Assembly: GCA_019695115.1 (NCBI GenBank)
Contig: JAIBAP010000058.1
Coordinates: forward strand, 1-37,372
Direction of reading: 5' to 3'
Origin: Caldilineales bacterium
GTDB lineage: Bacteria > Chloroflexota > Anaerolineae > J102
Length of the DNA stretch: 37,372 nucleotides
This document shows, piece by piece, positions 32,726-37,372 of the stretch. Below the pieces are notes generated by a model that was given only the letters and a program-made list of their open reading frames with translations, did no database searches and was not told the DNA's origin. The translations under genes and the position numbers were made by a program. Numbering within the stretch: the first letter of the stretch is position 1; each line of letters starts with the position of its first letter.

Positions 32726-33313
32726 ATGAACACGACCATCCCGGTCTACACCATCGGCTACGGCGCCCGCACCATCGACGCCTTTCTCGATCTCCTGGCC
32801 GGCTACGAGATCGGCTACCTGATCGACATCCGCAGCGCGCCCTACTCGCGCTTCAAGCCGGAGTTCGGTCGCGAGGCGCTGGAGAGGGAATTGCGGCGGC
32901 GCGGCATCCGCTATGTCTTTCTGGGCCAGCAGCTGGGCGGCCGGCCGGATGACCCCGACTGCTATGTGGAGGATGGCGGCGAGGGCGAGGGGGCGCGCAA
33001 GGTCGATTACGAGCGGGTGAAGCAGAAGGATTTCTATCAGCAGGGTCTGGGGCGGGTCAAGAACGCCTTCGACCAGCAATTGCGCGTCGTCCTCATGTGC
33101 AGCGAGGGCAAGCCCGAAAATTGTCATCGCAGCAAATTGATCGGCGCTTCGCTCGAGGCGATGGGCATCTCCGTCGCCCACATCGACGAGAACGACGAGT
33201 TGCAAACCCAGGCTGCCGTCATCACCCGGCTGACGGCCGGGCAACTGAGTCTGTTCGACATGACTTTCACCTCGCGCAAGCGTTACGGCGGCAAGGAGGA
33301 GGAAGATGACTGA
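32726..33313 (+). CDS. DUF488 domain protein (first of pair)
   Basis: A 195-residue protein. It begins [17 protein letters not shown] and continues [16 protein letters not shown], then a conserved L-G-G-R-P, and later [16 protein letters not shown], a cysteine pair with C-H-R typical of DUF488. The function of the family is not established, but members are often found near nucleic-acid-processing genes. It overlaps the next DUF488 gene by 8 bp, so the pair is coupled, and lies upstream of a RecQ-family helicase. Confidence 0.88.
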
Positions 33314-33791
33314 GTTTGTCACCATCGGCGCTTTTGGCTGGACGGAAGCGGCGTTCTTCGGGGCGCTCACCGCGGCCGGGGTGAGTGTTTTCTGCGATCT
33401 GCGGCGGCGGCGGGGCGTGCGAGGGGCCGACTATGCCTTCGTCAACAGCCTTCGTCTGCAAGACCGCCTGGCCCAGCTCGGCATCCGCTATCTCCACCGC
33501 CTGGATCTGGCCCCCACCCTGGCCGTGCGCCAGGTTCAGCATGATGCCGACGACGCCAGCAAGACGGCCAAACGCCAGCGCACGACCCTCAGCCCGGATT
33601 TTGCCGCCGCCTACCAGCGCCAGTGTCTGGCCGGCTTCGACAGCGCCGGCTTCCTGGCCGAGCTTGGCCCGGATGCGGGCGTGGTGGCGCTCTTTTGCGT
33701 CGAGCGCGAGGCGGCTGCCTGCCATCGCTCGTTGCTGGCGGCGCGGCTGGAGCGCGACCTGGGCCTCACCGTCCGCCATCTTCTGCCCTGA
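33306..33791 (+). CDS. DUF488 domain protein (second of pair, diverged)
   Basis: A 161-residue protein. It starts [15 protein letters not shown] and has [13 protein letters not shown], then [12 protein letters not shown], so the C-H-R motif is kept while the N-terminal part differs from the first copy. It may pair with the first as a heterodimer, which is inference. Translational coupling through an 8-bp overlap with the previous gene supports a joint function. Confidence 0.83.
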
Positions 33792-33833
33792 GTTTTTGAT
33801 CCGCGAAGGGCGCGAAGAGACGCGAAGGGAGGC

Positions 33834-34044
33834 GTGAAATGTGAGGCGTGAGGCGTGAGGCGTGAAACGTGAGGCGTGAGGCGTGAAACGTGAGGCGTGA
33901 GGCGTGAAACGTGAGAAGACGGCGCCCAACTTCACGCACCACGGAACACGGAACACGCACCACGCACCACAAAACACGGAACACGCACCACGGAACACGC
34001 ACCACGCACCACGGAACCCGGAACACGCACCACGGAACCCGGAA
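33834..34044. repeat. Heptamer repeat locus 4 (two convergent arrays)
   Basis: Twelve consecutive heptamers of GTGAGGC/GTGAAAC type (33834-33917; on the minus strand CACGCCT/CACGTTT) are followed, after GACGGCGCCCAACTT, by sixteen uninterrupted plus-strand heptamers, CACGCAC, CACGGAA, CCCGGAA and one CACAAAA (33933-34044), ending 13 bp before the RecQ start. The fragment GATCCGCGAAGGGCGCGAAG at 33799-33818 is another simple repeat just before it. Confidence 0.92.
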
Positions 34045-34057
34045 CTTCTCAACTCCC

Positions 34058-37021
34058 ATGAAGACCAACGTCCTGATCGTCGCCAAAACTCGTCGCGGCG
34101 CCGGCGCCTGTGTGGGCGGCATTGCCGAGGACGGGCGCAGCCTGCGCCTGGAAGCCTTCGACGCCGGGCACAACGAACATGCCGGGCTGGAGTACCAGGT
34201 GGGGGAGTGGTGGGAGGTGGAGGCAAGCCAGCCGGCCCGGATCATCCCGCCGCATGTCGAGAATACCGTCGTCCATCAGAAGCGCAAGGTGGGGGCCGAA
34301 GCCGACCCCATCGCCCACATCACCGCCCACATGCCGCCCAAGAGCGGCGGGCCGGAGGTGCTGTACGAGGGCCTGGCGCAGGCAGCGCCCGGCGGGCCGT
34401 TGTACATCGCCGCCAGCAAGGGGTTGCCGCCCTACAGCACGATGTTCTGGCAGCCCGACCGCCCGTTGCAGCGCGACGGCGACGCCAAACGCATCCGCTA
34501 TCGCTATCCCACCGCCGGCGGCGGCTGCACCCTCACCTTCGTCGGTTTTCAGGAGCCGGTCGAGGTCATCCCGGCGGGGGCGCTGCTGCGCGTCTCGTTG
34601 GCGCACTGGTGGCGTCCGGCCGACCGGCCCGATGACGAACTGCGTTGCTATGTCCAGCTTTCGGGCTGGTTCTTGCCTGCTGCCGGGGCCAGCGCGTCGG
34701 TGGTTCCGGCGACGATGCCCGCGCCCGCGGCGCCTGCCTCCTCCGATCCTTCGTTTCACTCAGAGCCTGCCCTGAACGAAGTGAAGGGACAAGCTCTGCC
34801 ATCCTTCGTTTCACTCAGGACAAGCTCTGCCGCCCGCCATCTGCTCAAATCTGTCTTCGGCTACGATTCCTTCTGGCCGCTGCAAGAGGAAATCGTTGCC
34901 AACATCCTCCAGCGCCGCGACACGCTGGTGATCATGCCCACGGGGGGCGGCAAGTCGCTGTGCTATCAGCTCCCGGCCCTGGTCTTCGACGGCCTGACGG
35001 TGGTCATTTCGCCGCTGATCGCCCTCATGCAAGACCAGGTGGACGGGCTGCGCGAGATGGGCGCTCCGGCCATCTTCCTCAACAGCACGCTGGACTATCC
35101 CAACTACGTCGCCGCCATGCACCGCGTCCGCGCTGGCGAGATCAAGCTGCTCTATCTGGCGCCAGAGACGCTGCTGCGGCCCGAAACCCTGCTTCTGCTC
35201 GACCAATCGCAGGTGACGGCGCTGGTGATCGACGAAGCGCACTGCATCTCGGAGTGGGGCCACGATTTCCGCACCGAGTATCGCCAGCTGTTGCCCGTTC
35301 GCCGTCGCTATCCCGCCGCCGTCTGTGTGGCCCTGACGGCCACGGCCACGCCGCGCGTCCAGCAGGACATCAAGCACATCCTGGGCCTCGCCGAATCGAA
35401 CAGCTTTGTCGCCAGCTTCGACCGGCCCAATCTCCACCTGGGCGTACAACTGCGCAGCGAGGGGCTGAAGCAGACGGTGGAGTTCCTGGAGGCGCATCGC
35501 GGGCAGCCGGGCATCATCTATTGCAGCACGCGCGGGCAGGTGGATGAGCTGGCGGCGGCCCTGCAAGCGCAGGGGTGGCCGGCCCTTGCCTACCATGCCG
35601 GGATGGAGGACGCCGCCCGCAAGGAGCACCAAAATCGTTTCATCCGCGGGGACGATGTGGTGATGGTGGCCACCATTGCCTTTGGCATGGGCATCGACAA
35701 GCCCAATGTGCGTTTTGTCCTCCACTACAACCTGCCGCAGAGCCTGGAAAACTATTACCAGGAGGTCGGGCGGGCCGGGCGCGATGGCGAGCGGGCCGAT
35801 TGCCTGTTGCTGTTCAGCCAGGCAGATGTGCATACCATCCATCATTTCATCGACGAGGGCGCGCCGTCGGAGCGCAAGGGGCGCATCGCCCGGCTGCAAG
35901 ACCTGGTGAACTATGTGCAGACGGATGTCTGCCGGCGGGCGCCGCTGCTGCACTACTTCGGCGAGACGCGGGCCGACGAGCCGTGCGGCGCTTGCGACAA
36001 CTGCGTGGCCCAGGCGCAGGTTGGCGAAGGCGAGCGCGTGGATGTGACCATCCCGGCGCAGAAGTTCCTGTCCTGCGTCAAGCGCACGGGCGAGGTGTTT
36101 GGCGTCGGCCATATCATCGACGTGCTGCGCGGGTCGCAGGCCAAAGAAGTGCTGTCGCGGCGCCACGACCAGCTTTCGACCTACGGCATCGGCAAGGAGT
36201 TCACCGCCCGGCAGTGGCGCTATCTGGCCCAGCAGTTCATCAGCCAGGGTCTGCTCCAGCAGGATCTGCAGCACGGCAGCCTGCGGCTGACGCCCAAGTC
36301 CTGGCAGGTGTTCAAGGGCGAGCCAGTGGCAGTGATCATGGAGCGGGCGAGGGCGGCCGGGCCGGCGACCGCCGCCAGCTATGACGCCATTCTGTTCGAG
36401 CAGTTGCGCGGGTTGCGGGCCGAACTGGCAGCAGCAGCCGATGTCCCGCCCTACATCATCTTCCATGACCGCACGCTGATGGAGATGGCCACTTACTTCC
36501 CGCAATCGCGCCAGGCCCTCCTGTCTCTGGATGGCGTCGGCGAGCGCAAGCTCGAACGTTATGGCGAGGCGTTCCTGGCTTTGTTGCGCCGCTACTGCAC
36601 CGAAAACGGACTGCAAGAACGCCCGCGCGTGGCCCTGGCCTCGCTTCCGTCCCTGAAAGTCGATTCCGGCAAGCGGCGTTTCCAGGAGGTCGGCGAGTTG
36701 TTCGTCGCCGGCAGTTCTATCGCCGACTTGCAGGCGCTGTACGGCGTGCAGCGAGGCACGATCATCACCCATCTGGTCGATTACCGGCGGGCGGGCGGCG
36801 AAGTGGACGGCGAGCGGGTGCTGCTGGCCTCGACCCTCTCGCCCGCCGAGCAGGAGCGCGTCCTGAGTGTGCTGGCCGAGCTTGGCTCCGGCTCGTTGCG
36901 TCCGGTTTTCGATGCGTTGGGTGGGGCGATCACATGGGAGGACTTGCATCTGATGCGGTTGTATTACGAAGCGACGCGCACAAGGAGGGACGATAGCGTT
37001 TCCCTCGTCTCGGCCGGTTGA
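34058..37021 (+). CDS. recQ: RecQ-family ATP-dependent DNA helicase with N-terminal dual-OB-like domain
   Basis: A 987-residue protein from ATG 34058; the same frame extends further upstream only through heptamer repeats. Residues 1-225 begin T-N-V-L-I-V-A-K-T-R-R-G-A-G-A-C-V-G-G-I and resemble a dual OB-like domain often encoded next to DUF488. A linker of about 30 residues (230-258) comes from a dispersed repeat. The RecQ helicase follows: motif I with T-G-G-G-K-S near 295, V-I-D-E-A-H near 390, T-A-T-A-T-P near 428, the C-terminal helicase domain with Y-H-A-G-M and V-G-R-A-G-R-D-G near 573, zinc cysteines (C-x-x-C-x-x-C) around 645, RQC (660-750), HRDC (770-850) and a final HTH_40 domain. 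It unwinds DNA 3' to 5'. The upstream DUF488 genes are on the same strand. Confidence 0.9.
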   Translation: MKTNVLIVAKTRRGAGACVGGIAEDGRSLRLEAFDAGHNEHAGLEYQVGEWWEVEASQPARIIPPHVENTVVHQKRKVGAEADPIAHITAHMPPKSGGPEVLYEGLAQAAPGGPLYIAASKGLPPYSTMFWQPDRPLQRDGDAKRIRYRYPTAGGGCTLTFVGFQEPVEVIPAGALLRVSLAHWWRPADRPDDELRCYVQLSGWFLPAAGASASVVPATMPAPAAPASSDPSFHSEPALNEVKGQALPSFVSLRTSSAARHLLKSVFGYDSFWPLQEEIVANILQRRDTLVIMPTGGGKSLCYQLPALVFDGLTVVISPLIALMQDQVDGLREMGAPAIFLNSTLDYPNYVAAMHRVRAGEIKLLYLAPETLLRPETLLLLDQSQVTALVIDEAHCISEWGHDFRTEYRQLLPVRRRYPAAVCVALTATATPRVQQDIKHILGLAESNSFVASFDRPNLHLGVQLRSEGLKQTVEFLEAHRGQPGIIYCSTRGQVDELAAALQAQGWPALAYHAGMEDAARKEHQNRFIRGDDVVMVATIAFGMGIDKPNVRFVLHYNLPQSLENYYQEVGRAGRDGERADCLLLFSQADVHTIHHFIDEGAPSERKGRIARLQDLVNYVQTDVCRRAPLLHYFGETRADEPCGACDNCVAQAQVGEGERVDVTIPAQKFLSCVKRTGEVFGVGHIIDVLRGSQAKEVLSRRHDQLSTYGIGKEFTARQWRYLAQQFISQGLLQQDLQHGSLRLTPKSWQVFKGEPVAVIMERARAAGPATAASYDAILFEQLRGLRAELAAAADVPPYIIFHDRTLMEMATYFPQSRQALLSLDGVGERKLERYGEAFLALLRRYCTENGLQERPRVALASLPSLKVDSGKRRFQEVGELFVAGSSIADLQALYGVQRGTIITHLVDYRRAGGEVDGERVLLASTLSPAEQERVLSVLAELGSGSLRPVFDALGGAITWEDLHLMRLYYEATRTRRDDSVSLVSAG
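34745..34830 (+). repeat. Dispersed repeat within the RecQ fusion coding sequence
   Basis: ATCCTTCGTTTCACTCAG and ACAAGCTCTGCC occur twice in tandem (34746-34800 and 34801-34830). The second copy reads TCACTCAGGACAAGCTCTG, close to TGTTCAGGACAAGCTCTG in the terminal inverted repeat. The repeat is read in frame and encodes the linker between the OB-like and helicase domains. Confidence 0.75.
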
Positions 37022-37191: not shown

Positions 37192-37372
37192 AAGCATCCA
37201 TTCGCTACGCTCAGAGCTTGTCCTGAACACAGTGAAGGAACAGGTTCTCGCGCGTCTTAGGTCAGCACTAACGGAAAGGCATCATACAATTCATGAGATT
37301 TGGATGGCCCACGCGAGAACCTGTTCCTTCACTGTGTTCAGGACAAGCTCTGAGCGTAGCGAATGGATGCTT
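37192..37372. repeat. Perfect 61-bp inverted repeat at window end
   Basis: The left arm (37192-37252) and right arm (37312-37372) are exact reverse complements of each other, separated by 59 bp. The right arm ends with the last base of the window, so it may continue or may be an assembly fold-back. Its inner part, GAACAGGTTCTCGCG, is AT-balanced and no ORF fills the spacer. Confidence 0.88.

Follow-up and report, generated by a model that had tools for sequence, protein, structure and literature searches.

What could two overlapping DUF488 genes be doing directly upstream of a RecQ helicase that carries an extra N-terminal domain? This arrangement lies at one end of the window, a 37,372-nt stretch of contig JAIBAP010000058.1 from a Caldilineales bacterium (Chloroflexota), the rest of which holds housekeeping genes. 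DUF488 proteins are widespread and, to our knowledge, have no established function. Our preferred reading, to which we assign a probability of roughly 0.5, is that the locus encodes a DNA-end-processing module of defence origin that has become coupled to RecQ.

Profile searches with Pfam resolve the locus into two DUF488 genes followed by a gene for a DuOB–RecQ fusion (Table 1). The gene content proposed by the initial annotation was confirmed: both DUF488 genes match PF04343 and overlap by 8 bases, and the RecQ protein indeed has an additional N-terminal dual-OB-like domain, with a PF22557 match preceding the RecQ domains (order: DuOB, DEAD, Helicase_C, RecQ_Zn_bind, RQC, HRDC, HTH_40). Its longer frame for the fusion gene, starting at GTG 33911, is ruled out as a mis-start inside a repeat, residues 1–49 being mostly translated heptamer repeat array (33829–34045). 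We place the start at ATG 34058 because the resulting N-terminus, MKTNVLIVAKT, matches the starts of relatives in the alignment, making this codon the likely true start of the 987-aa fusion. The heptamer repeats are scattered genome-wide (207 and 171 matches, with 0 for reversed-pattern controls), and a dispersed element, CCTGAACGAAGTGAAGG, lies in-frame in the DuOB–RecQ linker (34771–34787). The 6.0 Mb genome contains only three DUF488 matches and one DuOB, and two of the former sit directly upstream of the latter, an adjacency that is therefore far beyond chance.

Table 1. Features of the DUF488–DuOB–RecQ locus (positions in the window)
Feature	Position	Strand	Remarks
DUF488-1	32726..33313	+	195 aa; PADLOC PDC-M45B-like; PF04343 E 2e-21
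DUF488-1 motif C125-x-E127...C133-H-R135	33098-33130	+	
DUF488-2	33306..33791	+	161 aa; 8-base overlap with DUF488-1; PF04343 E 8e-10
DUF488-2 motif C131-x-E133...C139-H-R141	33696-33728	+	
Heptamer-repeat arrays, intergenic	33829..34045	.	between DUF488-2 and fusion gene
DuOB-RecQ fusion gene	34058..37021	+	987 aa, likely start ATG 34058; start by alignment to relatives
DuOB domain, two OB folds	34067..34669	+	PF22557 E 1.2e-18; 9.7e-20 on genome
Linker between DuOB and helicase	34691..34837	+	holds in-frame dispersed-element copy
RecQ helicase core (DEAD + Helicase_C)	34877..35788	+	PTGGGKS, IDEAHC, QEVGRAGRDG intact
RecQ zinc-binding domain (RecQ_Zn_bind)	35822..36004	+	PF16124 E 5e-17
RQC domain	36032..36325	+	sole RQC match in window genome
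HRDC domain	36392..36586	+	PF00570 E 2e-22
HTH_40, C-terminal	36695..36958	+	PF14493 E 1e-10

The helicase part is that of a canonical RecQ. The fusion scores 738 bits against TIGR01389 (recQ; cut-off 640) and contains the Walker A, DEAH and motif VI sequences as well as the zinc-binding, RQC and HRDC domains, differing from canonical RecQ by its N-terminal DuOB (~205 residues) and its two tightly linked DUF488 genes. In the wider comparison, Walker A is kept in 54/55, DEAH in 55/55, and motif VI is present. RecQ family members unwind DNA with 3′→5′ polarity. In Chloroflexota carriers, the fused protein usually supplies the sole full-length RecQ; two Verrucomicrobia carriers (G416 and G420) have a second RecQ, and therefore this status is not general. 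A helicase related to RecQ also serves in defence in PsyrTA and RqlHI, as the toxin, and the PADLOC PsyrT model matches the window helicase (347 bits). There, however, the partner is a DprA-family antitoxin, whereas here the upstream partners are DUF488 genes; no DprA-like partner was found upstream of the fusion, and the contig continues for only 351 bases downstream. Membership of the Dpd system as DpdF was rejected (NF041063 score 204.8 bits, cut-off 550).

The DuOB domain matches PF22557 over nearly its entire length (68.4 bits, cut-off 27; profile positions 2–210 of 210). With its AlphaFold model (pLDDT 93.7), the best 34 Foldseek matches are nearly all HIN-200 DNA-sensor domains (top E 9.6e-6, TM about 0.37; VIA Z 4.8), and RPA is also structurally near. 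HIN-200 proteins (AIM2, IFI16, MNDA) and RPA70 share with DuOB two consecutive OB folds, which in DuOB span the entire domain, but they are eukaryotic proteins, and no convincing sequence similarity was found between DuOB and any solved structure. As modelled, DuOB appears to resemble these tandem-OB DNA binders, with weak superposition, and the HIN-200 likeness says nothing on the form of nucleic acid bound.

DUF488-1 and DUF488-2 match PF04343 with 77.3 and 39.8 bits, respectively (cut-off 22.2), and Pfam holds both a DuOB entry and a DUF488-N3a subclade. The motif CxE(x5)CHR is invariant in both paralogues (120/120 loci), and since both keep the complete motif, a pairing of an active with an inactive DUF488 is ruled out for the loci examined. 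We take DUF488 to belong to the RapZ-C-DUF488-DUF4326 clade of the rhodanese-phosphatase superfamily; Burroughs and Aravind, in 2023, reportedly predicted that proteins of this clade process DNA ends. Independently, a structure search with the AlphaFold model of DUF488-1 (pLDDT 89.6) returned PTP-like phosphatases, among them the capping-enzyme RNA 5′-triphosphatase and KAP (Z 9.0), and diphthine-synthase-like methylases. The model has the Rossmann-like fold of the superfamily, in which a strand (121–125) ends at the cysteine, C125, and a helix follows from H134-R135. No convincing sequence relative of DUF488-1 was found among solved structures; the predicted fold is cysteine-phosphatase-like. 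Its chemistry could differ, because DUF488 has a longer loop (C-x9-R) than the phosphatases (C-x5-R) and methylases share similar folds, and we rate phosphate-type end chemistry at slightly less than an even chance.

Across genomes, the same parts recur together. The suggestion in the initial annotation that dual-OB proteins are often encoded beside DUF488 was borne out: among Chloroflexota DuOB loci, 27 of the 37 examined have a same-strand DUF488 nearby (two copies in 26 of those), and among GTDB loci with DuOB, all but 2 of the 80 found have one. DuOB and RecQ share one reading frame at 67 loci in at least five phyla, 60 of which have exactly two DUF488 genes. In the RecQ tree, these fused loci group in a single branch (SH-aLRT 94–98) with members from Chloroflexota, Verrucomicrobiota, Poribacteria, Acidobacteriota and Latescibacterota. 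The RecQ link also takes other forms: a separate, divergent RecQ gene lies downstream, next to DuOB, at eight loci (L160–L162, L165–L167, L169, L179), with another separate RecQ gene beside DuOB at L058; and within the fused branch, a DUF488 gene overlaps a plain RecQ by ATGA (L182) or, in the window's own family, is fused directly to RecQ (L189). Pairwise distances of the four components correlate (r 0.52–0.79, with 0/500 permutations as high), a pattern that shared descent alone can also produce. Among 717 neighbours, no fourth conserved gene was common beyond closely related genomes. Because this gene set is found again in dozens of genomes from several phyla, its members very probably cooperate on DNA; with the RecQ link conserved in several forms, the earlier proposal that all three act jointly on nucleic acid is very probably right.

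The trio itself already has a name, contrary to the suggestion that the unit may be undescribed: in PADLOC-DB it is the candidate system PDC-M45, with DuOB as component A and a DUF488 protein as each of components B and C. None of the papers in the collection searched names PDC-M45 or uses DuOB for this domain. DUF488-1 matches PDC-M45B (PDLC04657) with 162 bits (E 3e-48) and qualifies as component B, while DUF488-2 matches PDC-M45C (PDLC04658) weakly (E 7e-8) and PDC-M19A better (E 9e-10). PDC-M45A is absent among the best 25 PADLOC matches of the fusion. Standard DuOB proteins are matched by PDC-M45A; standalone DuOBs of the window's subtype (L037, L042, L041) have no PADLOC match, while L047 and L050 do. 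Like PDC-M45, the window locus combines these three kinds of protein in a compact operon, but it has a DuOB subtype missed by the PDC-M45A models and fused to a full RecQ. The DuOB–RecQ fusion is a variant beyond the listed trio.

Unfused trios occur on plasmids, next to CBASS and within a type III-B CRISPR locus. They also occupy the interval flanked by P2-type gpA and portal genes, a known anti-phage hotspot of P2 prophages (PMC9122126). Most likely, the unfused trio is a mobile defence module, and defence was probably its original role. A standard DuOB query found no match in the phage genomes of INPHARED, nor did the Salmonella plasmid trio in complete E. coli genomes at the DNA level. The defence reading of the initial annotation is supported by context for the unfused trio. 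The neighbourhoods of the fused form look ordinary, and the enrichment in defence islands that had been proposed as a check was not seen there.

Of the alternatives, one would extend immunity to the fused form: DuOB would sense foreign or broken DNA, RecQ would unwind it, and the DUF488 enzymes would modify ends or nucleotides so that invader replication fails. The PDC-M45 listing, the hotspot, CBASS and CRISPR settings of unfused copies, and the RecQ-like helicases in other PADLOC systems (the PsyrT match) argue for this reading. PADLOC candidates, however, are mostly unvalidated, the PDC-M45A model misses the window's DuOB subtype, and no enrichment was seen at the fused loci. We consider this account possible, at distinctly lower than even odds, and would say the same of defence as the present main role of the RecQ-fused form. 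The most far-reaching reading is of an immune system, so far undescribed, that edits DNA ends together with RecQ: a bacterial HIN/RPA-like DuOB domain would recognise foreign or broken DNA, RecQ would open it, and a pair of active DUF488 cysteine enzymes would alter the strand ends, the module having become the cell's own RecQ in whole lineages. This seems unlikely.

A dedicated DNA-repair module, in which DuOB recognises the RecQ substrate and DUF488 enzymes clean damaged ends with no role in immunity, is rather unlikely as well. It would fit the frequent status of the fused protein as the only full-length RecQ of Chloroflexota carriers, and its RQC domain as the only one matched in the window genome. 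PADLOC tallies, which are descriptive and without a random-gene control, show hardly any defence neighbours at fused loci, and the Poribacteria fused loci have conserved neighbour genes, both of which suit a chromosomal repair gene. At one locus (L151), the operon also includes genes for a P-loop kinase and a Prim-Pol, a hint of end processing, and a DNA photolyase gene lies 3 kb upstream of the locus in the window. Against repair alone stand the mobility of the trio when RecQ is absent (on plasmids, in prophages, and in CRISPR and CBASS islands), its patchy spread (DuOB of any kind in 38/199 genomes of the class) and frame-broken copies (L121, L123), as in dispensable genes.

Less probable still is a nucleotide-signal module, with a small nucleotide or a derivative of ADP-ribose as the DUF488 substrate and DuOB–RecQ as the DNA-side sensor or effector. 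In viruses, DUF4326, a sister family of DUF488, occurs in fusions with NADAR, Macro and SLOG domains, and ADP-ribose-linked phosphates have been proposed as its substrates (PMC9503650). In plasmid copies from enterobacteria and Acinetobacter, DUF4326 stands in for the second DUF488. However, NAD or ADP-ribose enzymes were not recognised beside the loci inspected, and the L189 fusion and L182 overlap suggest that DUF488 works directly with the helicase. Finally, chance adjacency of DUF488 to a RecQ with an unrelated extension has a negligible probability, being rejected by the same gene order in many phyla, direct fusions, overlapping genes and the rarity of the parts in the genome, with no support found.

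In the DNA-end-processing module of defence origin that we prefer, the three genes would form one DNA-acting unit, a proposal built on the conservation of gene order, on the domain fusions observed, on helicase motifs that are intact and DUF488 motifs that are invariant, and on predicted folds. The tandem-OB DuOB may grip DNA at a junction, a gap or an end, after which RecQ would unwind it, baring a strand end. The DUF488 pair could then remove or transfer a phosphate (or similar group), either on the bared end or on a nucleotide set free. In one lineage, the trio would have been fused to a canonical RecQ and then have spread across phyla. Because the fusion usually provides the only full-length RecQ in Chloroflexota carriers, the module probably serves both DNA-end repair and protection from foreign DNA there.

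For DUF488, the RecQ link offers a testable role, that of acting on substrates made available by RecQ and a tandem-OB domain, DNA ends for example. More broadly, the locus suggests that several phyla have incorporated a candidate defence module into a repair helicase; if true, this would be an unusual case of one protein common to immunity and repair.

The two DUF488 genes of the window overlap by 8 bases and are directly followed by a gene that joins the dual-OB domain DuOB (PF22557) in frame to a RecQ helicase. This fusion gene most likely starts at ATG 34058, giving a protein of 987 amino acids; a longer frame from GTG 33911 was rejected, as it crosses heptamer repeats in the spacer downstream of DUF488-2. 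Only 351 bases separate the end of the fusion gene from that of the contig (C58, complete in the window). This contig belongs to the 6.0-Mb genome of a Chloroflexota bacterium, probably of the class Anaerolineae, and has a GC content of 43% in positions 1-2000 versus ~65% over the remainder. The heptamer repeats form two families, CGTGAGG-type and CACGGAA-type, occurring about 200 and 170 times in the genome (two probes of 25-28 bases gave 207 and 171 matches, their reversed versions 0). Both have invaded the DUF488-2/fusion gap; most relatives have only a short gap there or none at all. A dispersed element with the core CCTGAACGAAGTGAAGG is present in 21 genome copies (≤1 mismatch; reversed control 0).

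Features of the window around the DUF488 pair and the DuOB-RecQ fusion gene
Feature	Position	Remark
DUF488-1	32726-33313	overlaps DUF488-2
DUF488-2	33306-33791	upstream of the DuOB-RecQ fusion
Heptamer-repeat array	33829-34045	in the DUF488-2/fusion spacer
CCTGAACGAAGTGAAGG-core element	34771-34787	in-frame insertion in the DuOB-RecQ linker
Diverged copies of the CCTGAACGAAGTGAAGG-core element	37222-37238, 37326-37342	near the contig end

The initial annotation had proposed these genes as a candidate, possibly undescribed system. The unit of two DUF488 genes and a DuOB-RecQ gene is real and conserved, recurring across phyla, but the underlying trio is already listed as a candidate: a standard DuOB and two DUF488 proteins are components A, B and C of the PADLOC phage-defence candidate PDC-M45, and the dual-OB domain is already named DuOB in Pfam. 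DuOB is present in 45 of 400 Chloroflexota genomes. Among the 37 Chloroflexota loci fetched with flanks (window counted), 27 have a same-strand DUF488 gene within ~1 kb, and 26 of these have two. A scan of GTDB genomes with the window's DuOB subtype found DUF488 at all except two (L114, cut off by a contig end, and L134) of the best 80 of 155 relatives; within this set, DUF488 and DuOB genes frequently overlap by a few bases, and one DUF488 gene (L156) is divergent from DuOB. Carriers include Anaerolineae, Caldilineae, Ardenticatenia, Verrucomicrobia, Poribacteria, Acidobacteria, Phycisphaerales, Latescibacterota and Bacteroidetes.

DuOB is fused to NHL repeats (L038:8940-10520) or to a glyoxalase-like domain (L036:3664-4794) at DUF488-linked loci. 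At L042:2310-7503, an unfused trio is closely preceded by two intein-containing genes, one DUF444 and one SpoVR. In Chloroflexota, a family of weakly scoring DuOB matches (L054, L055, L067) lacks DUF488; the genes around DuOB match in length between L054 and L055 (477, 155, DuOB 235 and about 612 aa).

Both DUF488 paralogues keep the motif CxE(x5)CHR at 120 of 120 loci, so an active/inactive pair was dismissed. In the predicted model of DUF488-1 (pLDDT 89.6), a strand terminates at C125 and a helix begins at H134-R135, an arrangement shared with cysteine phosphatases except for a longer loop. Structurally close to the model are the capping-enzyme RNA 5′-triphosphatase, PRL and dual-specificity phosphatases, besides KAP (Z 9.0) and diphthine-synthase-like methylases. 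Burroughs and Aravind (2023) reportedly grouped DUF488, such phosphatases and these methylases in a rhodanese-phosphatase superfamily, and are said to have predicted DNA-end processing in conflict systems. The same group describes DUF4326, the sister family of DUF488, as a rhodanese-phosphatase clade with ties to ADP-ribose metabolism and DNA modification (PMC9503650, PMC7824862). The DuOB model consists of two OB folds (pLDDT 93.7). Its best 34 Foldseek matches are, with weak similarity, HIN-200 domains nearly throughout, some of which we take to be such from their PDB codes; RPA is also structurally near, and DuOB is likely to bind DNA, judging from the predicted fold.

DuOB and RecQ share one frame at 67 loci (a count with at least one duplicate genome, L034 being L140), 60 of which have exactly two DUF488 genes. 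Nearly all fused copies retain intact RecQ motifs. In the RecQ tree, they group as a single branch (SH-aLRT 94-98) that comprises several phyla; its closest outsiders are the plain Anaerolineae RecQs L183 and L184. The simplest reading is a single fusion event followed by transfer between phyla. Other configurations also tie RecQ to these genes. A separate divergent RecQ-like helicase (768-1060 aa) lies downstream of DuOB at L160-L162, L165-L167, L169 and L179, in most cases preceded by the DUF488 pair, and at L058 the gene of another distinct RecQ overlaps DuOB. Within the fused branch, two loci have lost DuOB: in L182:885-3607, an intact DUF488 gene overlaps a plain RecQ by four bases, while in L189:2096-4786, from the window's own family, DUF488 with a decayed motif (LMDAPARPEASHRS) is fused directly to RecQ. 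Together, these arrangements argue for a functional link between RecQ and DUF488/DuOB. Another helicase pairing is found at L041:9705-12450, where a window-subtype DuOB without DUF488 directly follows a UvrD-type helicase gene. The fused gene is frame-broken in L121 (= L173), L123 and L101, and a DUF488 gene is fragmented too in L121 and L123, through either decay or assembly error.

Of 199 genomes of the Anaerolineae class, 34 contain a strong RQC match, scoring 90 bits or more. By our count, the match sits in a DuOB fusion within one contig in 19 of them (frame broken in two), in 3 others a fusion is apparently interrupted by contig ends, 2 are the DUF488-linked L182 and L189, and in 10 the match is unlinked. 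The window genome has no RQC match other than the fused protein, which in Chloroflexota carriers is usually also the sole full-length RecQ; an additional RecQ is frequent among carriers from Verrucomicrobia and Poribacteria. Open frames of ~1030-1220 aa in six Anaerolineae-class genomes (G449, G491, G526, G544, G545, G593) have two separate RQC matches each and are possible duplicated-RQC helicases.

An unfused trio on an Agrobacterium plasmid has CBASS nearby, and one on an Allochromatium plasmid is flanked by CRISPR type III-B genes on one side and a Cas1/Csx16 pair on the other. Restriction-modification methylases adjoin the trio at L050 and L142, and in a viral contig (L157) it lies near a terminase gene. 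At L159 its neighbours are the P2-type replication gene gpA and a portal gene, a location known as an anti-phage hotspot of P2-like phages (PMC9122126). Enterobacterial and Acinetobacter plasmids (L072, L073) encode DuOB-DUF488-DUF4326, with DUF4326 in place of the second DUF488. These neighbours lend contextual support to a defence role of the unfused trio. A 4.2-kb mobilizable Klebsiella plasmid (L071) carries DuOB and DUF488. Around the fused loci, none of 359 neighbour genes is shared beyond close relatives, and PADLOC matches are scattered in a descriptive tally made without a random-gene control. A Saprospiraceae operon (L151:3574-6612) encodes DUF488-DUF488-P-loop kinase (AAA_33)-Prim-Pol-DuOB; its gene content suggests that kinase and Prim-Pol may be end-healing and fill-in partners, which would agree with end processing.

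The apparent novelty lies in how strong and varied the RecQ link is, and in the fusion taking over as the cell's RecQ; the window locus is best regarded as a RecQ-fused relative of the candidate trio listed as PDC-M45.
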